Assembly: GCF_000787575.1 (NCBI RefSeq)
Contig: NW_012236527.1
Coordinates: 620,001-684,000 of the forward strand
From: Acytostelium subglobosum LB1
Lineage: Eukaryota; Evosea; Eumycetozoa; Acytosteliales; Acytosteliaceae
Length of the DNA stretch: 64,000 nt
Direction of reading: 5' to 3'
The notes under the pieces were generated by a model. That model ran no database searches, was not told where the DNA came from, and was given only the letters and a program-made list of their open reading frames with translations. Of this stretch, positions 12,440 through 61,796 are shown piece after piece. Position 1 is the stretch's first letter, and each line of letters begins with the position of its first letter. The translations under genes were made by a program, and so were the position numbers.

Positions 12440-15045
12440 TTAATGTAAGTACTTAACATTGTTTGTTCTTTGCTTTTTGACTTTAACTCTTTCTATTCTA
12501 TTATATCTTCTTTTAACTTCAACAGTTGTTGTATTGTTGTTGATTTGATTATTGACTCTTTCTCTATCAATATCTTTTTTAATATCTCTGATCCAATAAT
12601 AGTTACTATAATTAGTGATTTTCTTCTTTGGAAGTCCTTCCAATAAGTATCTAATACATCTATGTGCATACCACTTGTTCTCTGTGATTGCCATGTCCAG
12701 AAAGTATTCCATGACCATTGTAATATTGATTGATTCCTTGACAAGTGCATTGTGCTGATTGGTATTGTTTGGAGCCTCTGGCAGAGACTTGACAAACAGC
12801 TCAACATAGAATGGAAGTAAGTCGACTCTATCGAATCCCAAGCATTTGATACCACATTTGCTCAGCAACTCTCTACTGTGTACTATCTTTAGACCATCTG
12901 GATTGGACATTCTCGATCAATTCTTGTTAAGCATAAGAGTGCTCGGTTGAACACTTCTGCTTTCTCAATGTTGTTTGGTGCTTGCAAGGCAACCAAGGTG
13001 TCCAGTGTGGCTATGTCCTCGTATCCAACCCAATCCCATGTCTTGAGAGATAATTGTGCTCCATATTTGTCCATTAGATGATTGCACAATGAGTATTTTT
13101 CATAGGTGAATGATACATGTAGCAAGGATGACATACTTGATTGGTCTGATCGTATCTGTTCAAAGACATCATTGGGCAAGTCGAGTAACATAACACAATC
13201 TCGTAGATCAATTGAACATGCTGATTCCAGGAGTGACATGACCTTCTTCTTGTCAAAGCCAGCAATGGGTGCTTGAGAGAGGAGATATCTGATCACACCA
13301 GGGTCCACATCATATTCCTCGGATGGTACAAAAGACATTGCCTTCAACGCGTGGTTTGAGAATGATTGGACATTTTCAAGTGTTAACTCCCCAACACGTG
13401 TGTTGAGACATTGGATTGTCTCAGAACGTTGAGCTCTATCATACTCGGCTTGTATAATTGATTTGATGGCAATGGACCTGTCAATATCATATCGTTCAAG
13501 ATGATTAATATCCAATTCATGGACAATGTCATCAAGTGTGAGTATATGAGGATACAATGCAAGATATGATCTTAGCATGTCTGGGATAGCCAATGAAACA
13601 ATGAAATTGAGTGTTTCCAAGTTATCCATTGGGTGTAAATTGTGCTGATGAATATACTCCATTACATCAATCGATCGTGGATAAACACAGTCCAGATGGA
13701 TGTTGTTGCCATTTGGTGAGCCTCTATGGCGTGAGCGTGACACAGTATAGTGAGCAATCTTGACCATCTCCAGAGTACCGAATGTGCACACTGTCGCAAG
13801 GCCAAGCATCAGTCCATCTGTCTTCATATCATTAGAGAGGAAGTACCGAATGAACATCCTTAAGTATGTTTGATTGAATGTCTCAGCAGGAAGAACATTC
13901 ATGAATATTCCCTTCCTGATATGTGACTTGAGCTGTGGCTTCTCGTAATGGCATAGGATCACATAGATGTTGAGGAAGATCACACCAGCTTTGTTGAGTA
14001 TATCATGGCACCAAGGGAATAGTTTATGAACTTGAGGTGTAGGATGGCCATAGAGTTGTAGCACCTTGATCAGGAATTTGAATGATTGCTCCAACTGTGC
14101 TGGATCAGTTGGATGCGTGTCTGGGCCATGGAGTACATCAGTACCATCGATGGTTGGACGGAAGGTAGTCTCAATGTGATGACATAGTCTACCATGATTG
14201 AAAGGTATATGTTCTGCCACTAGCCCTGCCAACTCAATGTCCTTGCAGTTCAGCATCATTTTGAATAATGTACCACGCAATATTTGTTCCAACTCAATGA
14301 TTGAGTTGAGTTCCTTGTTGCATACTAGGACATACTTTATCAACATCTTGAGTATCTTGGCCATCTGCTCCAGATCGTATGAGGTGTCTGATACCACCAA
14401 TTCATAATAGGTGTAATGATCCGACCATGATTGAATCCTCTTGGCCATGTAATCTGATGGTTCGCTTGGCATTAGATATTCAAACATTGCCAGTCGGCCA
14501 TGAATTAGTGCCCACAGTAGATCGTCGTCGAAACGATATGGGTGACCTCTCGAGATGCATGGATAGTCTTTAGAGAGTGTCTGGAGGTGTTGATAGATAT
14601 CGAGTCGTCCATTTCTGGCAGCGATCGACTTCATTTGTTTGTCCCAATAGTGTATCATGTGTTTGTTTGTGTCACTGACTCGTTGGAACACAGCCAGGGG
14701 CATGGTCTCGATGATCTTCTCCAAGCAGTCGCGATTCATGTTATGCATGGAGTGGCGGCCGCCTTGTCGCAGAAGTCGTTCGACAAAGAAATAGTGCCAA
14801 TGTGGGTTCATCAACAACTTGTGTGCATCTAACAATCGGTCGTACTTGTATATCAAATGATTGGTGAATGGTAGTCTGCCCATCTTTACAATAGTCCTTA
14901 ACATTGTCCTGTTGCACAACACTTTAACAATGAAGTAGTCATGTCTTTGTTTATCTGCACCAACCATCATGAGGCATGAGTCTCGACAGTCACACTTTGG
15001 CAGGAATTGTTTAAGTACTTGTGATAGTTCAGTTGTGTGGGACAT
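12440..15045 (-). pseudogene. Ankyrin-like CDC-motif paralogue, copy A (frame disrupted)
   Basis: The first frame runs from ATG at 15045 to a stop at 12889 (718 residues); the family C-terminus continues in another frame to 12440. Between about 12950 and 12885 the homology steps through a third frame that reads LIENVQSRWSKD, so at least two indels lie close together. The start MSHTTELSQVLKQFLP and the CDC-x3-C ... RHD motif are intact, and the end keeps RCIRYLLEGLPKKKI and the basic KKQRT tail. It is probably a recent pseudogene that could still express a truncated protein; an assembly error is possible. It is the last member of the left (minus-strand) half of the array, about 310 bp from copy B. 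Confidence 0.75.
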
Positions 15046-15356
15046 GATTGATTGATTGATTGTTTGTTAGATTGGTTGAATGTAGAATCGTAGTTTGATC
15101 AAATGATCACCAATCACATGACACCATTGTCCTCTCCAAACTTTCACCCTCATTTCGCTATTACCAAAACCCTTGCCCTCATTTAGACCTGACCCAAACT
15201 CTCGTTCTCATCATGATGTCGAATGGATGTATATTTAGTATTGTTGTGGAAGTATGATGCTCTGTTCTGTTCTCTTTCTCATGACTTGGATATTATGATT
15301 GGGTATCTTGGATATCTGACCATGCTCCAAACATTGTCGAAGGAGTACAAGAATGT

Positions 15357-17888
15357 TTAGTGTTGGTGTCGCTTGACTCTCTTGTCTGTCTTTTCTTGTC
15401 TGTCTCGAAGATAATTGGTCCAAACATTATGACTGAAATTGTCGATGGTCCGTTGTTCCATTCGTTCCATGACGTATCTAATACATTGCTCCGCATAGCA
15501 GATATCCTGAGCAACCATCTTCTCGAGAAGGAATACCCTGAGAATTGCCATGGTTACATGTGTTGTAACGACTGCAGACGGTTCTGGATGGGCATTCTCG
15601 ATCAGATCTAGAATGAATGCCAACACATCAACTCGATCCAGAATCAAACATTTCATATCCGAGGTTTTACATATCAAATCCCTTGAGAGCTTCTCACGGT
15701 TGATGACAATATCCTGATACCATTTTGAGAGGATGATCTTGATCATTGGTAGGTTGCATTGGTCGCATGCTCCTTTGAGCGTATCCTGTTTCTCCTTGAT
15801 AGTCGGTTCTTGCAATGCAATCAATGTATCCAAGATGCTCACGTCCAAACCTCCAACTGCCCGCCATATTGTAAATCTTGCTCCACAGCCAATGAGGTAT
15901 TCACAGATTGAGTAGTGGCCATGAGCAAAGGCCACAGAGAGGAGCTGTGACATCAATTCCGAGTCTGTTCGAATATCAACAAATACAGGGTATGATGTTT
16001 CAAGCAAGCGAATAGAATCCATTAAACCAAGTTCACATGCTGATGTGAAGATCTGGAATGTAAGTTCCCAGTCCAACTCTGCCGCTTGGGCTTGTGAGAG
16101 AAGATAGCTGACCACTTCAACACTATGGTCTTGTGTAGGCTTGAATCTGATGTACTTGAGGGCATGGATGGGTAGTCTTTTGATCTGTCGCGGATCTAAA
16201 TCTTGGGCACGTTCAGAGATGATGTCAAAGTCCATGTTTAAGCCGGCTTTGTTAATTTCGCGCTGTATTATTGATTGAATTGCCAGACTTTTGTCAATAT
16301 CTTTGTCGACCAAGCAGTATCTTATCTCATCTCTGATTGAATAGACCTTTGACATAATATCATCTTCGTCTGGTGAGAATAAATCATATGTAAAGTTATC
16401 AAAGAATGCTTGAAGTATGTCTGGTTCAGCCATTGAAGCAAAGTGATTGAGCACATCCACTTCATCGCCCTCGTACATGTTATGATCATGCAGGTATTTC
16501 AGTATGTCCAGAGATGCTGGAAGCATATAGTCCATCCTAAGATCATCATGAACCAATGAATGGCCGTCTAGACCACCATCGGGTCTATCCAACAACTGAT
16601 GACCAATCTCAACCATCTCCAATGTGCCAAAGGTACATATTGTTGCCAGTCCAAGTACTTTTGATTTGGGTGTCTTGCCGAGTCCGATGAAGTAATGGAT
16701 GAACTCTACCAAATGTGGACGATCAGTCTGGCGAACATTCATGAAGATGCCCTGTGTGATGTATGAGGCGATTTGAGGTTCATTAAATTCCTTCATGACG
16801 ACATACAGGTCGAGGATCATGATGCCAACGTCGGTGAGCACCTCCTGTCTTCCAGGAGATCGGTCTGCAGTGCGTTTTAGTTGACGTCCATACAACTCGA
16901 GAAGTTCAAACAGGAAGTTGACTTTGTGCCTCAGCCTCTCTAGGTCGAGTTTGATCCACATTTGATTGTTGTTGATGTTGTCGTAGAGGTAGAAGCTGTT
17001 TGAACCAAATATATTGTTGCAATAATCGAAGAGTTGAATATCATTGAATGGAGCACACTCGATATATTGACGTGCCAACTCCATGTCGGTACACCTCAGT
17101 ATCATTGTGAATGGTTCAATCAATAAACATTTGATTGCTTGAGCAGGCGTGATCGAGGTGTCCTTCTTGTAGTGATGTGCGATATACCTGATGAGTATCT
17201 CAAGTGTTGATGCCATATCGCTCATGTCTGTGTCTGCGTTGAATTTATACATCTCTCTTGTCGTTTGGCCAATCAAATGATTCCTTCGTCGTATTCTTTT
17301 GTCCATGCTCTGTTTGGTCTCTCGTGATAGGAGATAACCAAACAATGACGAACGGCCATTGTCAAGTGCCATCATGAGATAATCGTCGACATTGTTGGTG
17401 CCTTTGATACGTAGATACTCTTTAGCTTGAGCCCAGAACAACTTGAAGGCTTCTAGGTGTCCATTCTTTGCTGCCGACTCCATCAATGCTAGATGATGAT
17501 AAAGCATGAGGTATCTGTTTGTGTCATATACATGTTTGAACACAATGAATGGCATCGAATCCATCAACAGCAACAAGCCGTCAATAGACCAACTCATCCT
17601 GTGACCTCGAAGCAATCGTTCTAGAAATACATAGTTATGTTTGTTTGATAACATTCGATATGGATCATTGAGTTGATCATACTTGAGCATTGAATACCTC
17701 ATGTGTATTTGTCTGCCCGAGTCCACAATCCTTTTGAACAATGTCCTGTTGCACAACACACCAACAATGACACTGTCATGTCTCTGTTTGTGTTGATCAT
17801 CATTATTACATGTATCACTACAGTCACACTTTGGCAACAACTGCTGAAGTACTTGTGATATGTTCACCTGGTCAGTACTCTGTGACAT
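15357..17888 (-). CDS. Ankyrin-like CDC-motif paralogue, copy B (open)
   Basis: A single exon of 843 residues. The N-terminal module is ISQVLQQLLPKCDC-SDT-C ... KQRHD, followed by VLCNRTLFKRIV. The rest is built of helix-pair units that look like degenerate ankyrin repeats (AAKNGHLEAFKLF, ICTFGTLEMVEIGHQLL, FAHGHYSICEYLIGCGARF). The conserved C-terminus reads QCIRYVMERM and then a basic tail, KRVKRHQH. There is no signal peptide or membrane segment. The function of this dictyostelid family is unknown to me; ankyrin-like repeats suggest protein binding and the Cys/His motif suggests metal binding, both inference. It lies 136 bp from copy C with the same orientation, and its upstream spacer carries the G-rich hexamer tract. 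Confidence 0.85.
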   Translation of the reverse strand: MSQSTDQVNISQVLQQLLPKCDCSDTCNNDDQHKQRHDSVIVGVLCNRTLFKRIVDSGRQIHMRYSMLKYDQLNDPYRMLSNKHNYVFLERLLRGHRMSWSIDGLLLLMDSMPFIVFKHVYDTNRYLMLYHHLALMESAAKNGHLEAFKLFWAQAKEYLRIKGTNNVDDYLMMALDNGRSSLFGYLLSRETKQSMDKRIRRRNHLIGQTTREMYKFNADTDMSDMASTLEILIRYIAHHYKKDTSITPAQAIKCLLIEPFTMILRCTDMELARQYIECAPFNDIQLFDYCNNIFGSNSFYLYDNINNNQMWIKLDLERLRHKVNFLFELLELYGRQLKRTADRSPGRQEVLTDVGIMILDLYVVMKEFNEPQIASYITQGIFMNVRQTDRPHLVEFIHYFIGLGKTPKSKVLGLATICTFGTLEMVEIGHQLLDRPDGGLDGHSLVHDDLRMDYMLPASLDILKYLHDHNMYEGDEVDVLNHFASMAEPDILQAFFDNFTYDLFSPDEDDIMSKVYSIRDEIRYCLVDKDIDKSLAIQSIIQREINKAGLNMDFDIISERAQDLDPRQIKRLPIHALKYIRFKPTQDHSVEVVSYLLSQAQAAELDWELTFQIFTSACELGLMDSIRLLETSYPVFVDIRTDSELMSQLLSVAFAHGHYSICEYLIGCGARFTIWRAVGGLDVSILDTLIALQEPTIKEKQDTLKGACDQCNLPMIKIILSKWYQDIVINREKLSRDLICKTSDMKCLILDRVDVLAFILDLIENAHPEPSAVVTTHVTMAILRVFLLEKMVAQDICYAEQCIRYVMERMEQRTIDNFSHNVWTNYLRDRQEKTDKRVKRHQH

Positions 17889-18024: not shown

Positions 18025-20616
18025 TCAAGTATGTTTAGTGTTGGTGCTTGTTCTTTGTCTCTTGACACTTGTAGTCCTCTGATCTGATTGTCTGTCTTTA
18101 TCACGACCATTAAATATCTTGATCCAAACATTGGCACTTGTGAATCTCTTGATTGTCAGTTGTGGCAACCCTTCCAGGAGGTACCGTATGCATTGCGCTC
18201 CGCCAAACATATGGTAGTAGCCATCATAGTAATCGTCCTTTCTTGCTACAATCTGATTGAGAAGATATTCCTTTGCAGAGTGCAGAGTGTTTGGAGTCTT
18301 GGCCGTGGCGGAACGAGTCTTGGACGACAGGATATTATTGTTTGAGTCTAATCGAGAACAATCGACAATCATCTCTGTAATGCTTGCCAACACATCCACA
18401 CGATCCAGTGTCATACATTTAAAGGCCTTCTGTACCAATATATCTCGATCGAGTTTGATATCTTTAGACCATCTCCTGTAAACCATCTTGATCAATGATG
18501 AGTCGGGGTTGGAGCAGAGAGAGTGTATCACGACTTCCTTCTCCGACTGGGTGAGAGTGGTCTGCTGTTGGTCAAGCAACATATCCAACAACATGATGCT
18601 ATTGTTATCAAAAATTATGATCCTCTTCCACATGAACCATTTGAGTCTTGCGCCACAACCCACGAGGTATTGGAATATTGAGTATTGACCATGATTGTAG
18701 GCCGCAAGAAGTAGATTTGCCATAACATCTGAGTCTGATCGAATATCCTTAAAGACTTGATTGGACGACGAGTCGAGAAGGTGAACGTACTCTATCAATC
18801 CATATGTGCAGGCTGACTCCATGAGTCCCTCTGCGAAATGCTTGTTGAGGATGATGTCGGATGCCCTGGAGAGAATTGAGATGATCACGGATGGGTCCAC
18901 TTTACAAACTTCTTCATTAGGATAGTATTCAAAGCTCCTTAATTTGTCGTCAGAGAGGGATTGGACCTGTTGCAGTGTAGACAGATATGCTTGAACAGTT
19001 ACGATCTTAAAGTCAGCATTTCGATTTGCTTTGGCCAGCTCAGCCTGGATGATTGATTGGATCGATATACATGTGTCTACGCTGTGGTTTTCCAAAGCTT
19101 CCATGATTTCATCCTGATACACTCTAAGATCATCAGCAGTATAGGTTTGATTATCAATCAATAATGTTGGGAATGTTGAGAACAGTTTCCTAAGTTGGTC
19201 TGGATCGCCCAATGAAGCAAAGTGAACGATTACTGGCCAGGTGCGCATTGTATACAGGTTGTGCTGAACGAGGTACTCCAGTATCTCCACTGACTTTGGG
19301 AATGAATCATCGTTGCTCAGATCCTTCCCGTCCAAAGATCTTCCTACGATGTCCATCGCAAGTTTGACCATCTCCAATGTGCCATAAGTGCTTATCGCTG
19401 TGAGTCCATCAAAAAGTTGATGGGTGGTCATGTCACGAGAGATGAAGTACTGAACGAACTTGGCTAACTCTGATTGGTTGGCATCCTGGCGAACATTCAT
19501 AAAGATTCGTCGTATGACTATCCACGTGTCGTAGTTCTGTGTCAATGCGGAGAAGATGTCGAGCAGCATCACGCCAACGTCGTTGAGCACTTCTCTGCAG
19601 GCTGGCCATTCAACAACAGTGCGTGTGGCAGGGCGTTTATGGAGTTCCAAAAGATCAAAGATGAAGTCGACCTTGCGTCCCAACTGCTCGGGATCGATGG
19701 GTATCCCCTTGAGGTCATCATAGTTAAGCAATTCCAGGTTGAAGCTATTGGTCAGCTCCTCATCATTAAATGGGAAGTATTTGATTGATAGTCGTGCTAG
19801 ATCCATGTCCTGGCAGAGCAGCACCAACATGAATTGACAATCACCCAACAAACGCGTGATCACATATTGTCCTTGAGTAAGCTTCTTGTAGTGTGTCTCG
19901 ATGTATATGACCAATGTCTTGAGTATTGCTGCCATCTCTCGCCAATCATCGGGGGAACGTAGGCCTATGTTTGGAGGAATGATATTGGACCAATTGGTCA
20001 ACCTACGATCCATGCTTTGCTTCGTCTCGCGTGCCAAAAGATGATCAAACACCGCCTGTCTGTTGTTATGAAGAGCCAGAATGAGATGGTCATCTGAGGA
20101 GGATTGATACGAGTGTTGCGGACCGGGTGGGAAGTCTTGAACCTGCGCCTCAAAGATCTTGAACATATCCAGTCGTCCATATTTGGCAGCTGTCGACATC
20201 AATACCCGATGATAATAGAGCATGATGTATCTGTTTGAGTCATAGACATGCTTGAACACAGCGAATGGCATCAACTCGATGAGCAACATCAATCCTTGTA
20301 TTGACCACGATATACTGTTGTTGCCACAGCGGAGTAGTCGCTCAACCAACACATAGTGACGTTTCAATCTCAACAAATCGTCGGCTCTGTTGAGCTGATC
20401 ATACTTGAGAGTTGAATATCTCCAATATATAGGTCTGCCCACATTGATTATCCTTCTTAACAATGTCCTGTTGCGCAACACCTCAATAATGATGCTGTCA
20501 TGTCTATGTTTGTTTGTGTTGTTGTTGTTACAAGTGTCGCTACAATCACACTTTGGTAGTAACTTTACAAGTACTTGTGATAAGTCTGTAGTAGTACTAC
20601 TACTAGTATCTGTCAT
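18025..20616 (-). CDS. Ankyrin-like CDC-motif paralogue, copy C (open)
   Basis: The open frame extends 27 codons further upstream, but the start is placed at the ATG giving MTDTSSSTTTDLSQVLVKLL, because this matches the starts of the other copies; that gives 863 residues. The CDC-SDT-C ... KHRHD motif is present, then LRNRTLLRRIINVGRP, the ankyrin-like units (AISTYGTLEMVKLAM, AYNHGQYSIFQYLVGCGARL) and the end QCIRYLLEGLPQLTIKRF. The C-terminal tail is VKRQRTSTNTKHT, which resembles a short nuclear localisation signal. Its first 250 nt and its leader are nearly identical to those of copy D, so the two arose by a recent duplication or were homogenised. Confidence 0.85.
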   Translation of the reverse strand: MTDTSSSTTTDLSQVLVKLLPKCDCSDTCNNNNTNKHRHDSIIIEVLRNRTLLRRIINVGRPIYWRYSTLKYDQLNRADDLLRLKRHYVLVERLLRCGNNSISWSIQGLMLLIELMPFAVFKHVYDSNRYIMLYYHRVLMSTAAKYGRLDMFKIFEAQVQDFPPGPQHSYQSSSDDHLILALHNNRQAVFDHLLARETKQSMDRRLTNWSNIIPPNIGLRSPDDWREMAAILKTLVIYIETHYKKLTQGQYVITRLLGDCQFMLVLLCQDMDLARLSIKYFPFNDEELTNSFNLELLNYDDLKGIPIDPEQLGRKVDFIFDLLELHKRPATRTVVEWPACREVLNDVGVMLLDIFSALTQNYDTWIVIRRIFMNVRQDANQSELAKFVQYFISRDMTTHQLFDGLTAISTYGTLEMVKLAMDIVGRSLDGKDLSNDDSFPKSVEILEYLVQHNLYTMRTWPVIVHFASLGDPDQLRKLFSTFPTLLIDNQTYTADDLRVYQDEIMEALENHSVDTCISIQSIIQAELAKANRNADFKIVTVQAYLSTLQQVQSLSDDKLRSFEYYPNEEVCKVDPSVIISILSRASDIILNKHFAEGLMESACTYGLIEYVHLLDSSSNQVFKDIRSDSDVMANLLLAAYNHGQYSIFQYLVGCGARLKWFMWKRIIIFDNNSIMLLDMLLDQQQTTLTQSEKEVVIHSLCSNPDSSLIKMVYRRWSKDIKLDRDILVQKAFKCMTLDRVDVLASITEMIVDCSRLDSNNNILSSKTRSATAKTPNTLHSAKEYLLNQIVARKDDYYDGYYHMFGGAQCIRYLLEGLPQLTIKRFTSANVWIKIFNGRDKDRQSDQRTTSVKRQRTSTNTKHT

Positions 20617-20702
20617 AGTGTTGATTGTTATATCTGTATGTTGTTGTATCTGTTGACCACAATGTTGAATGAACAAACAAATCATCCCTTGCTTCACTTC
20701 AA

Positions 20703-20772: not shown

Positions 20773-23330
20773 TCAAGTATGTTTAGTGTCGATGCTTATT
20801 CTTTGTCTCTTGACTCTTGTCCTCCTCTGATCTGATGTCGCATGTCGCTCTTGCTCACTACCTATAAATATCTTGATCCACACATTGGAACTGGTGTATC
20901 TCTTGATGGTCTGTGGTGGCAATCCTTCCAGAAGGTACCGTATGCATTGTACTGCTCCAAGCATATCTTTGCTTTTTGTTATAATAGAGTTGAGTAGATG
21001 ATCCTTTACCAATGGTAGTGTGTTTGGTTCTCTGGCCGTGGCTGAACGAGTCTTACGCGACATGTTGTTGTTTGATTCGGATCGAGAACAATCGACTATC
21101 ATCTCTGTAATGCATGCCAACACATCAACACGATCCAGTTTCTTACATTTAAAGGCCTTCTCTACCAATGTCTCTCTATTGAGTTTGATATCTTTAGACC
21201 ATCTCGTGTAGACCATCCTGATCAATGATGAGTTGGGGTTGGAGCAGAGAAAGTACATCGCTTTTTCTTTCTCCGACTGGGTCAGAGGTGTCTGTTGTTG
21301 TTCAAACAATACATCCAACATGCCATCGCTATTCACCTCCTTCCACATGTTTTTTTTGAGACTTGCGCCACAACCAACGAGGTATTGGCAGATTGATATA
21401 TGTCCATAGTTGTAGGCCGCAAGAAGCAGCGTAGCCATTGTCCCTGAGTTTGATCGTAGCTCGACAAAGACCTTGCTGGACGAGTCGAGAAGGTGAACAC
21501 ACTCGGTCAAACCATGAGTGCATGCAGCCTCCATGAGGGATTCTGTGAGATCACTCTCGAAGTCCAAGGCCGATGCCTTGGAAAGTAGATAGCTGATCAC
21601 GGATGGGTCCACTTTCCAAATATCTGGAGGTGTGATTGTAATTCTGTTCAAAGTGTCGTCTGGGAGTGATTGAACCTGTGGCAATGTCATCTGATGTACA
21701 CGCATTGTGACGATATCAAAGGTATCATTTCGTTGTGCTTTGACCAGCTCATCCTGGATGACTGATTGAATGGCAAAACATGTGTCAATGTTGTGATTGT
21801 CAAAGATATCCATGATATCATCCTCCAACTTCGAAAGGTCGTCTCCACGAGGTAATATTGTTGGAAATGTTGAGAGCAGCTTCCGTAGTTCATCAGGATC
21901 GCACATTGAGGCAAAGTGAATGATTGCCTGCGAGTTGGCCATTTGGTGCATGCCATGCTCAACGAGGTACTCCAGTGTCTCCACCGACTTTGGGAATATA
22001 TCATAGCAACTTAAATCCATGACCCAAGTTCTACCTGCAATGTCCAGAGCAATCTTGACCATGTCCAATGTGCCGGTTGCATATATCTCAATGATGGCCC
22101 GACGAATATCATCGGTTTTCATGTCACGTGAGAAGAAGAATTGAATGAACTTGACCATCTCTGATTGGTTGGCATCCTGGCGAACATTCTTAAAGATTTG
22201 ACGTGCGATGGCCAACCCGAAATTGTGGTTATTCTTGGTCCTAATCGTGTAGATATCGAGCATCATCACTCCAATTTCCGTGAGCACCTCTCTGCAAGCT
22301 GGCCATTGATCAATGACACGTGTGAACCGACATTTATAGAGTTGCAGGACCTCGAATATGAAGTCGACCTTGGGGCCAAGGTCCTCTGGACTGAGGGGAG
22401 GAATCTGTTCATGATTGCTATGCCTGGTTATATCGTCGCAATGTTTGCTCAGTTGATGAGCATCGAATTCGATATACTTGTAACATTGTCGGGCCAGCTC
22501 CATGTCCTGGCATTTGAGCACCAACGTGAATTGAACATCTTGATCAAACAATCGACCAAACACACGTAGAGCATGTTGAAGCTTCTTATAATGTGTCTCG
22601 ATATGCTTAATCAAAGCCTTCATTATCGCTGCCATCTCTCGCCAATCATCTGGGGTACGTTGACTGATGGTCATAATAATGTGATAGCTCCAAATGTATT
22701 CCATCCTTTTGTCCATTCTGTCTTTCGTATCGAACGACAGCAGATATTCAAACAATGACTGTCTGTTGTTATGAAGAGCCAGAACGAAATAGTCATCCTT
22801 GGAGTTTGAGTATGAGCGAGTGCGTTTATCCTCTGGTGGGAAGTCTTGAGCCATCGCCTCCAAGATCTTGAACAAGTCCAGTCGTCCATATTTGGCAGCG
22901 GCAACCATCAATTCCCGATGATAATAGAGCATGATGTATCTGTTTGAGTCATAGACATGCTTGAACACAATGAATGGCATCAGCTTGATGAGTAGCGTCA
23001 AGCTTTCTTCTGACCATGATATGCTGTTGTTGTTGCCACAGCGGAGTAGCCGTTCGACAAACACATAGTGACGATCATTCAATCTCAACAAATCGTCGGC
23101 TCTGTTGAGCTGATCATACTTGAGAGTTGAATATCTCAATATATAGGTCTGCCCACATTGATTATCCTTCTTAACAATGTCCTGTTGCGCAACACCTCAA
23201 TAATGATGCTGTCATGTCTATGTTTGTTTGTGTTGTTGTTGTTACAAGTGTCGCTACAATCACACTTTGGTAGTAACTTTACAAGTACTTGTGATAACTC
23301 TGTAACAGTACTACAACTAGTATCTGTCAT
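20773..23330 (-). pseudogene. Ankyrin-like CDC-motif paralogue, copy D (single-base frameshift)
   Basis: The ATG at 23330 begins MTDTSCSTVTELSQVLVKLL, then the CDC motif and RTLLRRIINVGRPIY, after which the frame stops. The rest of the protein (788 residues to 20773) continues one frame over, from RYSTLKYDQLNRADDL to the tail VKRQRISIDTKHT. Copy C has a CTCC at the same place where copy D reads CTC (plus strand, near 23135-23137), so one base is missing and a Trp codon has become TGA. Everything else looks functional. It is therefore either a very young pseudogene or a sequencing error; resequencing the site would decide. It has the same leader and a similar G-rich tract (23416-23435) as copy C. 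Confidence 0.8.
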
Positions 23331-23415
23331 TGCGTTGATTGTTATATCTGTATGTTGTTGTATCTGTTGACCACAATGTTGAATGAACAAACAATCAACA
23401 CTTGCTTCATTTCAA

Positions 23416-23501: not shown

Positions 23502-26030
23502 TCATATATATGGAGTACCTGTACTTTGTCGCTTGTCACTTTGTTTGGTTTGGATATCCACATCTAGTATTCTGTCTTGAATCCGGCCCATAAGATACTT
23601 GATCCAAACATTGTCACTTGAGTATTGCTTAATGGTATGTTGTGGCATTCCTTCCAGGAGGTACCGAATACATCGTTCTCCATTACACCTATCTCTGTGG
23701 ATGGCCCTGCCAAGTATGTATTCTTTGGCCAACCATGTACGCTTCTCATTTCCTACCTTTCGATTCTTTACATTTACATACTTGACGATCAACTCTACAA
23801 TGAATGCCAATATATCAACATGATCCAATTCCAAACAGTCACTCGCGCAGGTTATCAACCTCTTTTTGTCAATCATGATATCATGTGAACATCTCGATAG
23901 TATGATCTTGGCCAATGGTAGATTGAGTTTGTCTAAAGCTCCATACAATACATCTTCCTTCTCATTGTTTGTTGGTGATTGCATTGCGATCAATGTATCC
24001 AAGATTGTCACATCCTCACCTCCAACCCACGTCCATGTTAAAGAATCAAAGATTGCTCCACGTCCTATCAGATACTGGCAGATTGAGTAGTGGCCCTCCA
24101 TGAAGGCATTGTGAAGCATGGCTGATGGAGTATTCAGAACAAATAGATGACTTTGTGAAAGTGCCATTTGGACTGACTCGTCCAATCCAAGTGAACAAGC
24201 CAGATAAAGTATGCTGGAGGACAGAAGATCGTAGTAGTATGCGACGTTGGCCTTTGAAATGAGATAACTGACCACTGTTGGATCCACTTCCCAATAGGGA
24301 TCCAGAGTATTAAATTTGATGTTCTTTAGAGCTCTGATAGGGAGTAATTGAACATGTTGCAACGTCAAATCATCCATTCTATATGTGATATTATCAAATT
24401 GAAAATCATTGTTTGCTTTGTCAAGCTCTGTCTGAATGATTGATCGAATAACGATTGATACATCCAAGTCGGTAAGGCAGGAGAATACTTGAAGGATTGC
24501 GGATCTGTCCAACTCTACGTCTAGCAAACCTGGATATCTGGCAAAGAAAGTCTTGAGCATGTCTGGATTGCCCATCTTTGAAAAGTGAGCAAGCATTGCC
24601 ATATTGTCCATCGTGTACATGTTATGTTCCAGTATGTACTCCAACATCTCCAATGACTTTGGAAAGACTCTGTTCAATCTAATATGATCCACCTTGAGTC
24701 CATACTCTAACACCAATAACTCGTGAACAATCTTGAGCATCTCAACAGTGCCAAAGGCACATATTGTATCCAGTGTAAGTATAAGTCCTTGGATCTTCTT
24801 GTTGTTGAGCGAGAGGAGGTATCGAATGAATTGCTTCAAATGTAATGGATCACATGACGGACGAACATTCGTGAAGATGCTCTTTCTGATAATGGAGTGA
24901 AGTGCAGGCTGTGAATCTGGTGACATGATGGCATAGACATTTAGGATCATCACACCAACCTCGGTGAGCACCTCCTTGCATGCTGGGAACAGTGTGTGAG
25001 TCGGTATGATGACAGGTCGGTCATATAGGATCATCAGTTCAAAGAGGAAGTCCACTCCACGTTTGAGCTGCTCTTGGTCAATCTTCTTCTTGATATCGGT
25101 ATAAAGTATATTTTCCCAGTTGTGATAGCCAAGTATGTTGCTGCAATGTTTGAATAACTGACTCTGATCGAACGGGGCATACTTGATTGCCTGTCGAGCC
25201 AACTCAATGTCCTCGCATTCCAATATCATTGAGAATGGATCCTTCAACATTGCTCTGATCACATGATGAGGTCGAATCGGTGTGATCTGGTTGTTGACGT
25301 AGTATGTCTCTGTGTACTTGATCAGTTTCTTGATTATGGCTGCCAATTCAATGCGTTCGTTAAGTGTGCGCCGCCGACTGGTCGTTGAAAGTTGGTTGTA
25401 ATGATGGGCAACTGGATCCTTAACCCGGTGGCTCATCGTGTCATAGGTCTCGAGCGCAAGTAGATGTTCAAACATTGATAGTTTACAACTATATAGCGCA
25501 TACATTAGATGGTCATTGTACTTGTCTGGCGAGGGAATTGCTAGTGGGTAGTCTTTGGACTGTGCCTCAAACACCTTGTACACATCAAGTCGGCCAGCAC
25601 TTGCAGCTGTTGCGATCAATGTTGGATGATGGTACAGCATGTTGTATCTGTTGGTGTCATAGACATGTTTGAATACAACGAATGGCATCAACCGGATCAA
25701 CTCAATGATGGCATCTTGAGACCAATACATTCTATTGATGTTGTTGCTACATCGGAGTAATCGTTCAATCAACACATAGTGATGTTGTTTGGACAACAAC
25801 AATGCATGTGCATCATTGAGTTGATCATATTTGAAGGTTCTATGCCTCCAGTATGTTGGTCTGCCCAACCTGACAATCCTCCTTAACAATGTCCTGTTAT
25901 GCAACACCTCAACAATGACACTGTCATGTCTATATTTGTCAATGTTATTGTTGTTGTAGCATGAGCCTCGACAGTCACACTTTGGTAACAACTGTTGAAG
26001 TACAAGATACATATCATTGGTATCTGACAT
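23502..26030 (-). CDS. Ankyrin-like CDC-motif paralogue, copy E (open)
   Basis: A single exon of 842 residues, starting MSDTNDMYLVLQQLLPKCDC with the motif CDC-RGS-C ... KYRHD. The usual order follows: RTLLRRIVRLGRP, YVLIERLLRCSNN, MPFVVFKHVYDTNRYNML, ankyrin-like units (AGRLDVYKVFEAQ, ICAFGTVEMLKIVHELL, MEGHYSICQYLIGRGAIF) and the end RCIRYLLEGMPQHTI. The tail has KQSDKRQSTGTPYI, a weaker form of the basic tail. Its upstream spacer has the shared leader element (TGTTGTTGTATCTGT on the plus strand) but only one CCC run. It is the most central full-length member of the minus-strand half. Confidence 0.85.
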   Translation of the reverse strand: MSDTNDMYLVLQQLLPKCDCRGSCYNNNNIDKYRHDSVIVEVLHNRTLLRRIVRLGRPTYWRHRTFKYDQLNDAHALLLSKQHHYVLIERLLRCSNNINRMYWSQDAIIELIRLMPFVVFKHVYDTNRYNMLYHHPTLIATAASAGRLDVYKVFEAQSKDYPLAIPSPDKYNDHLMYALYSCKLSMFEHLLALETYDTMSHRVKDPVAHHYNQLSTTSRRRTLNERIELAAIIKKLIKYTETYYVNNQITPIRPHHVIRAMLKDPFSMILECEDIELARQAIKYAPFDQSQLFKHCSNILGYHNWENILYTDIKKKIDQEQLKRGVDFLFELMILYDRPVIIPTHTLFPACKEVLTEVGVMILNVYAIMSPDSQPALHSIIRKSIFTNVRPSCDPLHLKQFIRYLLSLNNKKIQGLILTLDTICAFGTVEMLKIVHELLVLEYGLKVDHIRLNRVFPKSLEMLEYILEHNMYTMDNMAMLAHFSKMGNPDMLKTFFARYPGLLDVELDRSAILQVFSCLTDLDVSIVIRSIIQTELDKANNDFQFDNITYRMDDLTLQHVQLLPIRALKNIKFNTLDPYWEVDPTVVSYLISKANVAYYYDLLSSSILYLACSLGLDESVQMALSQSHLFVLNTPSAMLHNAFMEGHYSICQYLIGRGAIFDSLTWTWVGGEDVTILDTLIAMQSPTNNEKEDVLYGALDKLNLPLAKIILSRCSHDIMIDKKRLITCASDCLELDHVDILAFIVELIVKYVNVKNRKVGNEKRTWLAKEYILGRAIHRDRCNGERCIRYLLEGMPQHTIKQYSSDNVWIKYLMGRIQDRILDVDIQTKQSDKRQSTGTPYI

Positions 26031-26896: not shown

Positions 26897-26919
26897 AGTA
26901 GAGTTGCACCGTCATGATT

Positions 26920-53655: not shown

Positions 53656-55757
53656 ATGATACAGACTACAGTAGGTCATGATGTCATGTCACAAGTACTT
53701 AAGGCGTTTCTCCCAAGTGTGACTGTCGAGGCTCATGCAACAACAACACACAGAAGCAGAGACATGACAATGTCATTGTTGAGGTATTAAGCAACAGGAA
53801 ATTGCTAAAGAGGATTGTCAACGTGAGCAAGATACCATATCAGAAGACATTCAAGTACAACGAGCTTAATGTTGCCATGATTATGTTGCGCACTCGAGTC
53901 TATTCGCACAATGACTGCAAGGGTACATGACATTTATGCGAGGAAAAAGAGAAACAGTGGAGGAGAATAAGATGGATTGGCAACAGATGACATCAATACT
54001 CAAACGATTGATATCATTCTTGTATTATGATGAGATCGATTTCTATGATTATGATGATTGTCAGGATGCATGCCACAATCGATCAACTTATGTATAAACC
54101 CTTCAAGTTGTTGTTGCGTTGCGAGGACATCGAGTTGATGAAACTGGCATGCAATCATATCACATTCAATCATAATGATGTACATGATTATTGCGAGGAT
54201 GTATTCCGTCCATTGGTCGACGAGCAAGATGATGTACTCTATGGCGCCAAGAACAAACAACCTACCGATTCTGCCAAGTTGGAGCACTCACTCAACTTCC
54301 TCATTCAAGTGTACCAGCTCTATGGCAAGATTAAAAAACCGCCATCCAACGAGTCATTACAAGCATACAAGTCAGTACTCAATGTGGGCATGATATTCCT
54401 CAAGGTCTTTGCCTTCCTCTCGGCTACACCAAGAACGATTGATAAGCCACCTCTACTGCCGGTATCATTCGTCAGGAAGGGCATCTTTTTGAATGTGCGC
54501 CAGTCATACCAACAATCACATTTGGAGTCATTCATTCGATACTTCCTCTCGTTGGACAAGAAGAGACCTGGTCTGCTGCTTGGACTGGCAACCATCTGTA
54601 CATTTGGCACATTGGACATGGTCAAGATTGCTCATCAGATCGTTTCAAAAGAAGGAGGTCTGCCTCTTGGACATGATATTAGGCTCCAAAGTGTGAGCCC
54701 CAGGTCATTGGACATCATGGAGTACATCCAACTTCACAACCTGTACCCAATGGAGACCATCGAGATACTCACTCATGTTGCCTTGATGGCCGACCCCAAC
54801 ATGCTCAAGTCATTCCTTGTAACATACCCTGATGCACTGTTCGGACAGACAAACCCAGATGACGAAGAATATCTGAACGTTGATATCATATCCAAGAGAA
54901 TGATGAGGCATGATATGGACACACACAATGCCATTCGATCAATCTTGTTGGCCGAGTGTGAGCGATTACGTTGTTTGGAAGATGATGAGAGTGATTGTCT
55001 TATTCTTCGAGTGGATGAGATGACCGTTCAATCATACTCCAACAGTATTCTGAGGGAATCGACATTCGAACTACCTTTTGAGTTGGATGTTGATCCGGCC
55101 GTGGTAAACTATCTTCTCACTCAAGCACCGATTGGAGACTTCGGAACGGAGTTGACCTCTACAATCCTGGAGGCAGCTTGCCGACTTGGAATGACAGAGG
55201 GTGTTCACTTGATCGAGTTGCCCAATCAAGTGTTTGTCAATGTCCGATCCAACCCTTCATGCATGACCAGACTACTCTTGGCAGCACTCCAACGCGGTCA
55301 TCTCACAATCTGTCAGTATCTCATTGATCGTGGCGAACGATTCGACTGGTCATGGGCCGGCAATATCTCCTCTGTTGATGCGATTATTGAAATGCAAAGA
55401 CCAACAAACAATGATAAAGAGGCTATATTCTACGAGGCATGTAACAATAGCAACACCTCGATGGCAATGAACCTATATTCAAGAAGGTCTCAGGATATGG
55501 TGCTCTGTCGAAAGAAGTTGGCCGACTATGCCAAACAAAGTATCACTCGATGGGCCGACCCTGTCTACTTTGTGGCCTACATTGCAGGACTGATCGTCAA
55601 ATGTCCACCAACAACCAACAACAATGGTGCGTTGTACAACCATCAACTTTCCAAGAATTCATTCATTCTTTTGTTTGTTTCAGTGTTTGTTATTGGTTTG
55701 AGAATGTCAAACACTCCATTCAACCATTCATTTTTCAATTCAATTGAATTACCTTAA
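53656..55757 (+). pseudogene. Ankyrin-like paralogue, copy L (deleted and truncated)
   Basis: The start MIQTTVGHDVMSQVLKAFLP is followed by a one-base loss (CCCAAGT where copies M and N have CCCAAAGT) that destroys the CDC motif frame. At about 53892 some 350 nt present in copy N are missing: the sequence jumps from IMLR straight to the segment before DWQQM. A further shift lies near 54040. From 54060 to about 55640 the family frame is open for over 500 codons (LLLRCEDIELMKLACNHI, ICTFGTLDMVKIAHQIV, QRGHLTICQYLIDRGERF). After LIVKCPPTTNNN the homology ends in unrelated sequence, so the C-terminal module is lost. It belongs to a subfamily with M and N (KIPYQKTFKYNELN). Confidence 0.8.
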
Positions 55758-55785
55758 TATCTCATTCAATCAATCAATCAAACAA

Positions 55786-55806
55786 ACAAACAAACAAACA
55801 AACAAA
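55786..55806. repeat. (CAAA)n microsatellite in the leader of copy M
   Basis: Five perfect CAAA units and a partial one, ending at the ATG of copy M (55807). Confidence 0.8.
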
Positions 55807-58360
55807 ATGATACATACTACAGATGGTGACGATGGCTTGTCACATGCACTTAAGGCGTTACTCCCAAAGTGTGACTGTCGAGGCTCGTGCAACAACAACA
55901 ATAGCAGTGAGGACAAGCAGAGGCATGACAATTTCATTGCTCATGTATTGTTCAACAGGACATTGTTGAATATGATTGTTAAAGTTGGCAAGATACCATA
56001 TAGTAAGACATACAAATACAATGAGCTCGAAGATGCCATGATTATGTTGCGCAACAAACAATTTCACTATGTGTTTGTGGAGCGTCTGATGCGAGATCAC
56101 AAGATGCATTGGACACAGAATAGTTTGGAGAAGCTCATCGAGTTGATGCCCATTGCAGTATTCAAACATGTCCACAACGCATACAGATACACAATGCTCT
56201 ATCATCATCAGCGAATGATGCAGCTCGCGTCCCGATACGGACGACTCGATGTTTACAGGTTACTTGAGAAGCAGGCAGACGACAACAAAGACATACACTA
56301 TCATTTGTTTGAGAATGATTTCCAAGGCGATAATCGATATGACCATCTCAAGACTGCACTGTCATTGGGCCGGCGTGAGATGTTTGAATACCTTTTACCA
56401 CTCGAGAATGAACGCTCATTCACAGGTAGGATACATAGTACTGTGTTTGAGCATTATATCGATTGGCAACAGATGGATACTCAAACATTTGATAAAATTC
56501 TTGGATAAAGCTGGCATGCCATTTATAAGTCAACTTCTGAATAGACCCTTCAAGGTATTGTTGCGTTGCCAGGACATTGAGTTGGTGAAACAGGCAGTCG
56601 ATCATAATCATATCGAATTCAATCATGATGATGTCCATGATTATTGCGAGGATGTATTCCGTCCATTGATCGGCGAACAAGATGTACTTTATGGCCCCAA
56701 GAACAACCTATCACCTACGCAACCAGCTAAGTTGGAGCAATCACTCAACTTCCTCATTCAAGTGTACCAGCTCTACGGCAAGGATGTTCCACCATCCAAC
56801 GAGTCATTCCAATCATGCAAGTGGGTGCTCAATGATGTGGGAGTGATATTCCTCAAGGTATTTGCCATCCTCTCGGTCACACAGAGATCGAGAAATCAGC
56901 AACCTCTTCTACCGGTATCATATGTCAGGAAGGGCATCTTTTTGAATGTGCGCGAGTCATACCATCGATCACAATTGGAGTCATTCGTTCTATACTTCCT
57001 CACCTTGGACAAGAGTAGACGTGGTCTGTTGCTTGGATTGGCAACCATTTGTACCTTTGGCACCCTGGACATGGTCGAATTATCTCATCAGATCGTATCA
57101 AATGCTCGTTACAAAGGTGTACCTCTTGGGAATTATATTAGGCTCCAAAGTGTTAAGCCCAGGTCAATGGACATCATTCAGTACGTCCAAATTCACCACC
57201 TTTACCCAATGGACACCTATGAGATGCTCCAACATGTTGCCTCGATTGCCGACCCACTCATGCTCAGGACCTTCATCGAAACATACCCCGATGCATTGAC
57301 CAGACACCATATAGACATTGGATACATTTCTTCATATTTGTATTATCATGACATTGACACACACAATGCCATTCGATCAATCTTGTTTGCCGAGTGTGAG
57401 AGACTAGGAATCCTGGAGAATTCCAAATGTAATTGCCTTTATCATCGAGTGGATCATATGACCTTGGGACACTTTGAATCTTACTCTAAAAGGTTCTTAA
57501 AGTTATCTATATTCAATCCACGCCATGACTGTGATGTTGATCCGGCAGTGGTCCACTATCTTCTCACTCAAGCACCGATTGGAGACTTTGGAAAGAATTT
57601 GACCAAGTCTATCCTGGAAGTGGCTTGCTCACTTGGAATGACCGAGTGTGTTCATTACTTGATCGACTCGCCCAATCAAGTATTTGTCAATGTTCGATCA
57701 GACTCATTGTGCATGACCCAACTGCTCCGTGCAGCCTTCAAGAGAGGTCATCTCTCAATCTGTCAGTACCTCATTGAAAATGGCACATATATAGACTGGA
57801 CTATGGTGGACACAATCTCCTCTCTTGATGCGATTATTGAAATGAAATCACCAACAGACAAAGACAAAGTGAATATATTCTACACGGCGTGTATGATTGG
57901 CAACATCACAATGGCCAAGAACATATATTCAAGATGGTCTCAGGAGATGGTACTTTGTCGAAAGATGTTGGTGGATTGTGTACTTGAATGCATCTCGAAA
58001 ACTCCAAGGGGCGATCCTGTCGAACTGGTTACATTGATTACAGAACTGATCGTCAAATGTCCACCAACAACCAACAACTATTGGCCAGAAGATATATTTG
58101 TCAAGCATACGATCGATCTGGTGATGGTCAAGGAATACCTTCTCGACCAGTGGGTCCATGATAAAGAGTTTGGATTACAGGAGCTATGTATTCGATACCT
58201 CTTGGATGGACTGTCAGAGCAAGCGATCAAGAGATACACTGAAATCAATGTTTGGATATGGTATCTGAGTAGACACAATAAAGAGACCAATCAAGACTGG
58301 CCACCAACAGATGATGACAAGGTGAAACGACAGAGAACAGACAATAACAATCTTGATTGA
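55807..58360 (+). pseudogene. Ankyrin-like paralogue, copy M (one frame break)
   Basis: The start is the ATG giving MIHTTDGDDGLSHALKALLP; the motif CDC-RGS-C ... KQRHD is intact. The first frame runs to a stop at 56508; family homology changes frame near 56474. There, copy N reads DWQQIAAILKRLI, while M reads DWQQM and then ILKHLIKFLDKAG in the next frame, so a few bases have been lost. The second part is open to 58360 with all later landmarks (LLRCQDIELVKQAVDHN, ICTFGTLDMVELSHQIV, CIRYLLDGLSEQAIKRY) and the tail VKRQRTDNNNLD. With a single lesion it is a young pseudogene or a sequencing error. It is the best preserved member of the second cluster. Confidence 0.8.
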
Positions 58361-58500: not shown

Positions 58501-58549
58501 ATGTACAGATAAAATATACCTTAATATCTCTTTCAATCAAACAATCAAT

Positions 58550-61079
58550 ATGATGCAGACTAGAGATGGTGATGTTGATGATGACTTGTCACAAGTACTT
58601 AAAGGGTCTCCCAAAGTGTGACTGCCGAGACTCATGCAACAACAACAACAACACACAGAAGCAGAGACATGACAATGTCATTGTTGAGGTATTAAGCAAC
58701 AGGACATTGCTAAAGAGGATTGTCAACGTGAGCAAGATACCATATCAGAAGACATTCAAGTACAACGAGCTTAATGTTGCAATGATTATGTTGCGCAACA
58801 AACAGTTTCACTATGTGTTTGTGGAGCGTCTGATGCGAGGTCACAAGATGCATTGGTCACAGAATAGTTTGGAGATACTCATCGAGTTGATGCCCTATGC
58901 AGTGTTCAAACGAGTCCACGACACCAACAGATACGCAATGCTCTTCAATCATCAAATGTGGACGGCTCGACTTATACAAGTTGCTCAAGCAGCAGGCACT
59001 AGACAACCCAGACATACTTAAACCCAACTATCATGACTACATGATTATACAAAGAAAGGATCATCCAGGCAAAGTCAAGTATGATTTTGGACAAGACCAT
59101 CACCTGATCGCACTTAAACACGGCCGACTGGCGATGTTTGAATACCTTCTGCCACTCGAGACTGCGCGCACAATGGCAGCGAGGACAAAAAGATCAAGGG
59201 AATATATATTATCGGCAATAGAGTCTCAGATGGATTGGCAACAGATTGCTGCAATACTCAAACGATTGATATCATACTTGTATCAAAATGATGACGACGA
59301 CGACGAATATGATGATGACGATGATAGTGATGATTTTTGTGGGCAAGGAAGCTATCTAACAAAGATCTATCAACTACTCAATAGACCTTTCAATATATTG
59401 TTGCGATGCGAGGACATCGAGTTGATGAAACAGGCACGCAATCATATCACATTCAATCATAATGAAGTACATGATTTTGCCAGGATGTATTCCGTCCATT
59501 GGTCAATGAGCACAATGTACTATGGCACCAAGAACAAACAACCTACCGATCCTGCCAAGTTGGAGCACTCACTCAACTTCCTCATTCAAGTGTACCAGTT
59601 CTATGGCAAGGATGTACCGCCATTCCAAGCATGCAAGTCAGTACTCAATGATGTTGGAATGATATTCCTCAAGGTCTTTGTCATCCTCTCGGTTACACCA
59701 CGAACGAACGATTGGCAACCACACCTTCCTGTATCATTTGTCAAGATGGCATCTTTATGAATGTGCGCCAGTCATACCAACAATCACATTTGGAGTCATT
59801 CATTCGATACTTCCTCTCGTTGGACAAGAAGAGACCTGGTCTGCTGCTTGGACTGGCAACCATCTGTACATTTGGCACTCTGGACGGTCAAGAGTGCTCA
59901 TCAGATCGTTTCACAGACTTGTATCAAGGGGGGTGCCACTTGGACACAATATTATGCTGTATAGAGTGTATCCCAAGTCATTGGACATCATGGAGTACAT
60001 CCAACTTCACAACCTATACCCAATAGACACCATCGAGATACTCACCCATGTTGCCTTGATGGCCGACCCCAACATGCTCAGGTCATTCCTTGTAACATAC
60101 CCGGATGCATCGATTAGAGACCCAGATGAACAAGGTCTGGATTTTGAAAGCATTTCTAATCACATGGACTATCATGACATGGACACACACAATGCCATTC
60201 GATCATTGCCATGGAGATGTTTCCATCGCTACATGCCTCGTAGAATGCATCCTCTTTGTTCTTGTTTGTTGGTGGTTGCATCTCTATCATCACATCAACA
60301 TTTGAGATATTGTCGATCCACGACCAGTCGGTCAATCGTGCGCCACGATCAATGAGATACTGACAGATTGTGAGATGGCCGCGTTGGAGTGCTGCCAAGA
60401 GTAGACTGGTCATGTTGGAGGGGTCGGATCGAACATTGACAAACACTTTATGGGGCGAGTCGATCAAGTGAACACCCTCTGTCATTCCAAGTCGGCAAGC
60501 TGCCTCCAGGATTGTAGAGGTCAACTCCTCTCCAAAGTGTCCAATCGGTGCTTGAATGAAAAGATAGTTTACAACGGCAGGATCAACATCAGGTAGTTGG
60601 AATGTCGATTCCCTCAGAATCCTTTTGGAGTATGATTGAACCTATATTCAAGATGGTCTGAGGATATAATGCTCTCCAGAAAGAAGTTAGTGCACAGTTT
60701 CTTACTATGCATCTCTCGATGGGACGACCCTGTGGATGTGGTGATATTTATTGCAGAACTGATCGTCAAAAGTACGCCAATCAACAGTGGGACAGATGAT
60801 GTAATGAACAGGACAACGATCGATCTGATGATGGTCAAGGAATATCTTCTTGACTCAGTGGTAAACGTTCAAGACCGTGACAAAGCACTTGGGTCAGAGT
60901 TATGTATTCGATACCTCCTGGAAGGGCTGCCAAAACCAATCATCAAGAAATACTCAGAGGTCAATGTTTGGATCAAGTATCTACGTGGGCAGTATCTAAA
61001 GACCAATCAAGATAGGCCACCAGCAGATAATAACATAGTCAAGCGACAAAGAACAGACAATAACAACAATTATTATTGA
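58550..61079 (+). pseudogene. Ankyrin-like paralogue, copy N (many lesions, internal inversion)
   Basis: The ATG at 58550 begins MMQTRDGDVDDDLSQVLKG, then the frame breaks just before PKCDC-RDS-C. Further breaks lie near 58965, 59745 and 59885, each followed by family sequence in another frame. From about 60205 to 60640 the family sequence is on the opposite strand: it reads from VQSYSKRILRESTF to DGNISMAM on the minus strand, exactly the segment missing between HNAIRS and NLYSRWSEDIML on the plus strand (about 30 codons of the left flank are also gone). The 3' end is open again and has LCIRYLLEGLPKPIIKKYS and VKRQRTDNNNNYY. An acidic Asp run is encoded near 59288-59335. Confidence 0.85.
60204..60640 (-). 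other. Internally inverted segment of copy N
   Basis: About 430 bp encoding, on the minus strand, VQSYSKRILRESTFQLPD, LTSTILEAACRLGMTEGVHL, the GHLTICQYLIDRGARL unit and FYEACSDGNISMAM. Flanking plus-strand sequence carries the immediately preceding and following parts of the family. Microhomologies of TCA (left) and TGAAC (right, 60637-60641) fit the two joints when compared with copy L. Confidence 0.85.
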
Positions 61080-61796
61080 TTACTGCAACGGGAAATGTTG
61101 CAAGGAATGTCCTGAGCATGGGTGGGTCGGCAGTCGAGCATCTCAATGGTGTCCGTGTAGTTGGATGTACTCCATGTTGTCCAATGACTTGGGTTTCACA
61201 CTTGGGAGCGTAGTACCATCTCTCAACAATGGAGAGTAATATGAGCTTGGGAATGGCACTACTGTAAAGAGGATATGAAACATGAGTCTGATGTGATCAT
61301 TGGCGGGCGAGGGTTAGTATCGCGCGCTCACTCAATCAATCAATCAATGTCGTCAATGTAATAACTTGGAGAGAATGAATGACCAACTCATGTTTCATAT
61401 CCTCTTTACAGTTGTGCCATTCCCAAGCTCACATGGTCAAGATTGTTCCAGTGAACATGTCCAATATCCAAATACTCGTTGGATGGCGGTTTTTTAATCT
61501 TGCCATAGAGCTGGTACACTTGAATGAGGAAGTTGAGTGAGTGCTCCAACTTGGCAGGATCGGTAGGTTGTTTGTTCTTGGCGCCATATAGTACATCGTG
61601 CTCATTGACCAATGGACGGAATACATCCTGGCAATAATCATGTACTTCATTATGATTGAATGTGATATGATTGCGTGCCTGTTTCACCAACTCGATATCC
61701 TCGCCATACCTTGAAGGGTGTAACCAGAATTTGATCGATTTGTGGTGCGCACGTAGATGCCAGACAATAGTCATGATAGTTGGTTTTAGTATCTGG
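61079..61796 (-). pseudogene. Rearranged fragment of the ankyrin-like family, fragment O
   Basis: The minus strand has family sequence from about 61796 (ILKPTIMTIV-like, matching the ILKPNYHDYM of copy N) through EDIELVKQARNHITFNHNEV, DVFRPLVNEHDVLYGAKN and LEHSLNFLIQVYQLYG, and stops near 61440. After an inverted-repeat region it resumes weakly at about 61205-61085 (VKPKSLDNMEYIQL, then DPPMLRTFLATF). It lacks both ends of the protein and several internal parts. Both outer limits and the internal gap coincide with foldback repeats. Confidence 0.7.
61243..61430. repeat. 45-bp inverted repeat inside fragment O
   Basis: 61243-61287 (starting GAGCTTGGGAATGGCAC) and 61386-61430 are inverted copies with one mismatch in 45 bp. 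The 98-nt loop contains a (CAAT)n run. Confidence 0.9.

Follow-up and report, generated by a model that had tools for sequence, protein, structure and literature searches.

Dictyostelid genomes harbour expanded families of repeat proteins about whose function little is known, and one such family, encoded by a cluster of paralogous genes in Acytostelium subglobosum LB1, is the subject of this report. The closest described proteins are those with ankyrin repeats (Pfam Ank_2, Ank, Ank_3 and Ank_4), with which the cluster genes share an Ank_2 match and profile matches; unlike these, however, the cluster genes have repeats that are degenerate over most of their length, an extra N-terminal head, and no recognisable partner domain. 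Ankyrin proteins such as FEM1 act as substrate receptors of ubiquitin ligases, and FEM1-type Cullin-2 receptors give a weak profile match (FEM1C) at positions 584-668, a likeness that is shared with any ankyrin protein. The best fold matches in BFVD, which holds viral proteins only, are ankyrin proteins of giant viruses (mimivirus R837, Tupanvirus and Pandoravirus), with E-values down to 1.5e-5, but among the best 50 matches the TM-scores over the query are 0.12-0.31 and the identity is 8-15 percent. The FNIP family is likewise expanded in the same genome, but is built from leucine-rich repeats (PF05725) and not from ankyrin repeats. According to the available sections of PMC4334915, FNIP is an expanded repeat family of dictyostelids (Table 2 of that paper), and the A. 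subglobosum genome comprises 30.9 Mbp with an A+T content of 55.0 percent and an orthogroup including FNIP proteins of 381 genes. No description of the family treated here was found in the available portions of the literature consulted (including PMC8535579, PMC8715426, PMC9525666, PMC9485057 and PMC3188802).

The window, by which the whole stretch of 64,000 nucleotides is meant, corresponds to positions 620,001 to 684,000 of contig NW_012236527.1 (G000:C51:620001-684000 in the 30.73 Mb genome of 56 contigs). When the window was searched by tblastn with seven intact proteins and the frames were read, fifteen family loci were located between 12.4 and 61.7 kb, the number given in the preliminary description of this DNA, which had been made from its letters and open reading frames. 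Seven of them are intact, running from Met to stop over 838-865 residues, five are broken and three are remnants (Table 1), so that the rapid decay noted earlier applies to 8/15 loci; sequencing error is possible at loci 1, 4 and 13, where the break is single. The tblastn E-values among the copies reach 0, which excludes chance as the cause of their similarity. We consider, with a probability of about one half, that these genes are clustered paralogs under birth, death and probable conversion, and that they encode soluble intracellular adaptors of the ankyrin type in which a constant head is joined to a diversifying body. The Cys/His head looks like the unusual part of the family, the function of which is putative. 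As a case for study the cluster is tractable, since the short, constant head contrasts with a body that varies, since dying copies have intact ones as neighbours, and since the near-identical tracts are strongest at the 5' end.

The head follows the pattern P-K-[CS]-D-C-x3-C-(5 to 14)-R-H-[DE] in all 12 window loci that have a 5' end, and five dispersed copies occur elsewhere in the genome (C46, C33, C56, C28 and C51:1141709-1144537), the first of which is 57 percent identical to locus 9. A 75-residue head query against the genome (E up to 1) returned these 17 places and none further, a count that is to be read as a lower bound. The second Cys, the third Cys and the His are present in 17/17 aligned heads, and the His is followed by D in 16 and by E in one. 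Fifteen heads have the first Cys; locus 10 has Ser in its place, and in C28 it is absent. The signature CDC-x3-C ... RH[DE] that had been proposed for the head was thus recovered in 12 places but proved too narrow, as locus 10 reads KSDC and the dispersed copies have CxC-x4-C spacing or lack the first Cys, leaving C-x(3,4)-C ... H-[DE] as the constant core. Of the two other shared segments proposed earlier, CNRTLL was matched by pattern in 11 places, with a variant, SNRKLL, at 53.7 kb, and the conserved C-terminal end was found as a RYLLEGL-like sequence in 12 places.

In the dispersed copies the residues adjoining the Cys/His set drift (the K of PKCDC is kept in one of four and its D in two of five, and the R of RHD in three of five), while Cys2, Cys3 and His are constant; this is the pattern expected of a metal site, without being proof of one. 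Among ten full copies, invariant columns make up 12/39 of the head versus 49/732 elsewhere. In Pfam (8 window proteins, E up to 10) no match was obtained over the head, to a curated zinc-finger model or otherwise, HMMER filters dropping most weak matches. The suggestion that the head lies outside known domains and carries a conserved, spaced Cys/His set is borne out as far as Pfam goes, the set being retained in deep paralogs. A small metal site would fit this conservation. The head might then be a small cap that zinc or another metal holds together, with the His, the two invariant Cys and one more residue as ligands; in most copies this fourth ligand could be the first Cys, and in the two without it possibly the acidic residue. 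Judging from conservation, the head is most likely a small cap stabilised by metal and has the same partner or role in all copies, a role that may be capping, dimerisation or the docking of a single partner. If the head does bind metal, it would represent a new small module.

For the body, Ank_2 exceeded the Pfam cut-off in 4/8 window copies, and ankyrin models appeared below the cut-off in two more. When a 13-row profile was compared with the sequences of the PDB (E up to 1), 56 matches were obtained, nearly all of them ankyrin (by name or recall) and mostly around positions 583-668, with a best E of 1e-4. The AlphaFold model of locus 9, computed with window rows only, is all-helical, with 52 helices four or more residues long and without any strand that reaches three residues (mean predicted local distance difference test score, pLDDT, 76.4; predicted template modelling score 0.60); residues 1-44 and 53-71 fall below a pLDDT of 50. 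In the BFVD comparison by Foldseek, 45 of the best 50 matches are named ankyrin, and NCBIfam gave, among five proteins, a weak AnkF match in one (19 bits against a cut-off of 1000) and two chance-level matches for another. On the basis of these profiles and models the body most likely forms a helical solenoid of degenerate repeats of the ankyrin type; the preliminary description had likewise spoken of degenerate ankyrin-like repeats. No 19-residue window above 1.9 on the Kyte-Doolittle scale occurs in 10/10 proteins, which counts as support for soluble products. It is most likely, given the fold type and the regional pattern of selection described below, that the body endows each copy with its own partners; the solenoid would bind ligands that vary from copy to copy. 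If the variable body sites are binding sites, intracellular recognition in amoebae would be open to direct test.

Pairwise comparison of 13 rows by the method of Nei and Gojobori (NG86; 78 pairs, one without an estimate of synonymous divergence, dS) is mostly near saturation. The smallest dS among the seven intact frames is 0.53, and the seven least diverged pairs overall have dS values of 0.51-0.78 with a ratio of nonsynonymous to synonymous rates (omega) of 0.45-0.55. Under the one-ratio model (M0), ten full copies (705 gap-free codons) gave an omega of 0.44, and by region the values were 0.31 (1-75), 0.35 (76-200), 0.48 (201-580) and 0.46 (581-838). Residues outside helices have a higher omega than those within them (0.63 versus 0.53, p 5e-4). 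Within helices it is also raised at polar sites (0.65 versus 0.45), hydrophobic helix sites having lower values. Addition of a class with omega above 1 improved the fit for the ten copies (twice the difference in log likelihood, 2dlnL, 11.9; a value reached by 0/40 simulated nulls), but once the columns lying within four of a gap had been taken out the value fell to 3.37 and was equalled or exceeded by 6/40 nulls, and therefore only the result for loci 8, 9, 10 and C46, which are the four closest copies, is retained, where 2dlnL was 22.5 untrimmed and 8.16 trimmed with 0/40 nulls both times; 40 simulations bound chance at about 0.02 only, and conversion between copies may disturb the result. 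Of the diversifying selection that had been suspected in the family, the class of omega above 1 in these four copies is what stands; it does not extend to the trimmed ten-copy set, and the mean omega is well below 1.

The variable loop of the head had also been taken as a sign of such selection, a view that is mostly not borne out. Between the third Cys and RH the codon AAC occurs two to five times in succession in 9/12 copies, AAT AAT stands there in one, and two have neither; locus 8 has a longer insertion of different make-up, and the loops of loci 1, 8 and 11 differ in ways other than the AAC run. Repeat slippage accounts for much, but not all, of the variation in loop length.

Neighbouring copies also share tracts of near identity. 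Measured in 100-column steps, the identity between loci 3 and 4 is 0.94-1.00 along approximately 350 alignment columns that cover the 5' flank and the head, against a background of around 70 percent. Most of the remainder has values of 0.56-0.84, but identity rises to as much as 0.91 in a block near 18.4-18.6 kb and to about 0.85 in another at the 3' end. In the pair of loci 8 and 9, residues 1-84 show an identity of 0.93, versus 0.66-0.77 from residue 165. Gene conversion probably homogenises some of the 5' ends, to judge from these alignments. The near-identical tract of loci 3 and 4 ends a short way from the point at which the frame of locus 4 is broken.

A number of observations weigh against a metal-held head on an ankyrin body. 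Invariance within the head is not peculiar to Cys and His, as four more columns (V, K, I and I) are likewise constant in 17/17 heads, whereas the first Cys is missing from 2/17 and the Cys spacing is either x3 or x4. C28 and C51:1141709 have no ATG ahead of the head in their open frame. The Cys loop fell below a pLDDT of 50 in both AlphaFold jobs, with no metal geometry seen; the second of these jobs, on locus 5 residues 1-157, had a mean pLDDT of 69 with residues 16-28 as the Cys loop, and its model returned only four chance-level matches by Foldseek. By the mixture means, omega is 0.42-0.46 for residues 1-80, which is no lower than the 0.39 for residues 121-160, and part of the identity between the heads of neighbours may be due to homogenisation by conversion; the dispersed copies are an argument that selection acts as well. 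As for the body, Pfam found no ankyrin match in 2/8 copies and none above the cut-off in 4/8. Among the best 50 PDB matches listed by Foldseek, no matched chain is named ankyrin and there are weak matches to other solenoids (PPR, STAG), the best E being 3.7e-4 and five matches having E of 0.001 or less; one title names ANKRD11, yet the length of the matched chain is that of its STAG2 partner.

Several other explanations have to be weighed against that of ankyrin-type adaptors. The copies could form a recognition or defence repertoire, that is, intracellular sensors whose solenoids diversify in conflict with bacteria, viruses or other amoeba strains. Their clustering and high turnover, the class of omega above 1 in the four closest copies and the near-identical tracts between neighbours would all be compatible with such a role, but the turnover fits neutral duplication too, the loop varies largely through a codon repeat, the mean omega is 0.44 and the trimmed ten-copy signal is not significant; furthermore, in none of the 8 window proteins did Pfam recognise an NTPase, TIR, kinase or other effector domain, and we regard this explanation as unlikely. 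A bolder version holds that C-x(3,4)-C ... H-[DE] is an undescribed metal- or redox-responsive module gating fast-diversifying intracellular ankyrin receptors, some of them nuclear, that serve as a repertoire for self, prey or pathogen; this would be a long shot. At the opposite extreme the family might be decaying neutrally, under constraint relaxed after duplication and with no lasting importance, for which the 8/15 defective loci and the omega of the seven least diverged of 78 pairs could be cited. Under that scenario it would be hard to understand why seven long frames have stayed intact at the dS values observed, why no region reaches an omega of 1 and hydrophobic helix sites have lower values, and why the dispersed copies C46, C33 and C56 are open from Met to stop as well; it is accordingly held to be very unlikely.

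Two further alternatives concern the head. Its Cys cluster might serve for S-acylation (lipid attachment) or as a redox switch instead of as a metal site, and the location of the Cys in a low-confidence stretch (16-28) just past a short predicted helix is in keeping with this; lipid attachment, however, needs no such set as the His and two Cys that are jointly kept in 17/17 heads, which makes the proposal quite unlikely. It could also be imagined that the products are ubiquitin-ligase substrate receptors, as the weak FEM1C matches might suggest, and that the shared N-terminal region is a divergent element for docking Skp1 or a cullin. The available part of PMC9485057 lends this some plausibility, reporting that 18 Dictyostelium proteins that interact with Skp1 but have no recognised F-box carry receptor-like domains, and that these might be divergent F-box proteins. 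Pfam, on the other hand, gave no F-box match, and hhalign of the wider-family alignment (see below) gave a probability of 0.1 against both the kelch F-box protein and the N-terminus of the FNIP protein of the window, each a weak test with a single sequence. An F-box origin of the region is thus unsupported, and the ligase-receptor explanation is quite improbable.

Within this genome, the genes with a Cys/His head seem to form a single branch of a more extensive ankyrin-like family. A query with a distant gene (G000:C55:680927-682636) gave 47 matches, including itself and four in genes of the Cys/His branch. Members of this wider family share with the cluster genes an N-terminal VLTNRxLxRxI ... 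QW ... LLxDRxKR and the helices that follow but, unlike them, lack C-x-C-x(3,4)-C ... H-[DE], which was absent from all 11 of the members read in whole or in part, among them the query gene. The alignments of the two groups match by hhalign with a probability of 97.8 (E 7e-13) over 118 columns, starting at RHD. In an unrooted tree of the shared region, built without the Cys part and with loci 4 and 12 left out of the 17 heads, 15 Cys/His rows are separated from 11 others by a 100/100 branch; the His of the head occurs in 15/15 of the former and 0/11 of the latter, although in two of these 11 a His lies one or two positions before that place. A single gain or a single loss would explain the sampled tree. 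The preliminary description had spoken of a large family; the branch with the Cys/His head is of moderate size, and the cluster itself is split at approximately 38.4-53.7 kb by unrelated genes (a cyclase with two catalytic domains, a calponin-homology protein and an F-box kelch protein). Outside this genome, no relative was confirmed in phages, among 24 stretches matched by a pattern scan of IMG/VR with the family alignment, among 27 matched with the alignment of five Cys-less members, or among 43 in bacterial and archaeal genomes, the last three of these searches being pattern scans, which can miss distant relatives.

The copies also differ in their C-terminal tails. A K[KR]x[KR] stretch is present in 7/17 extracted tails, five of the seven having VKRQR, compared with a mean of 1.5 for shuffled tails and 0/2000 shuffles reaching seven; the related rows are not independent, and the tail of locus 7 was extracted by a wrong pattern match. 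The basic, KRQR-like tail, which we take to resemble a nuclear localisation signal, is found in loci 1, 2, 3, 4, 13 and 14 and in L038 and not in others, and the bearers of the basic stretch include the distant C56 copy. Copies with this type of tail may enter the nucleus, and a nuclear location is possible for them as far as the tail sequence goes. The orientation of the loci changes after locus 6 and again at locus 15, and the GC content of five loci is 0.415-0.473.

Table 1. Family loci and related features of the window (positions counted from its first nucleotide)
Feature	Positions	Strand	Description	Basis
Locus 1	12440-15060 (or 12560-15060)	minus	One break in the frame at about 12.9 kb, with the C-terminal part lying in a different frame	tblastn, frame reading
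Locus 2	15360-17888	minus	Intact, 843 aa, KRVK tail	
Locus 3	18028-20616	minus	Intact, 863 aa, KRQR tail	
Locus 4	20776-23363	minus	Single break near 23.14 kb; 5' end almost the same as that of locus 3	
Locus 5	23505-26030	minus	Intact, 842 aa	
Locus 6	26129-26684	minus	C-terminal remnant	tblastn
Locus 7	26859-27316	plus	C-terminal remnant	tblastn
Locus 8	27594-30122	plus	Intact, 843 aa	
Locus 9	30329-32842	plus	Intact, 838 aa; predicted model all-helical	
Locus 10	33062-35656	plus	Intact, 865 aa; head reads KSDC (first Cys to Ser), RHE	
Locus 11	35844-38360	plus	Intact, 839 aa	
Locus 12	53712-55826	plus	Broken, mostly deleted past the head; query residues 82-258, between head and body, without tblastn match	
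Locus 13	55795-58348	plus	Single frame break near 56.5 kb, KRQR tail	
Locus 14	58550-61073	plus	Many frame breaks, KRQR tail; piece 60183-60641 inverted in place	
Locus 15	61478-61702	minus	Internal remnant	tblastn
Head example, locus 5	25875-25988	minus	LPKCDCRGSC ... RHD ... LHNRTLLRRI	
Probable gene-conversion tract	20392-20692 (locus 3); partner 23107-23405 (locus 4)	minus	5' flank and head	

Among the neighbouring genes of the window, the cyclase that lies within the interruption of the cluster occupies 40999-44235 and has two guanylate/adenylate cyclase catalytic domains. At lower positions than the cluster there is a gene with a UBA-like and a cullin-binding domain (8978-9826), presumably DCN1-like, and an FNIP-repeat gene (6967-8793), FNIP having at least 207 matches in the genome. 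Beside the dispersed C46 copy, near the start of that contig, a repeat protein is encoded at L037:2-2023, its repeats being, as we assume, Cna-B- or colossin-like in look. Next to the distant copy at C51:1141709-1144537, finally, two fragments at G000:C51:1140957-1141665 match residues 432-530 and 847-936 of that copy and mark a second small site of duplication and decay.

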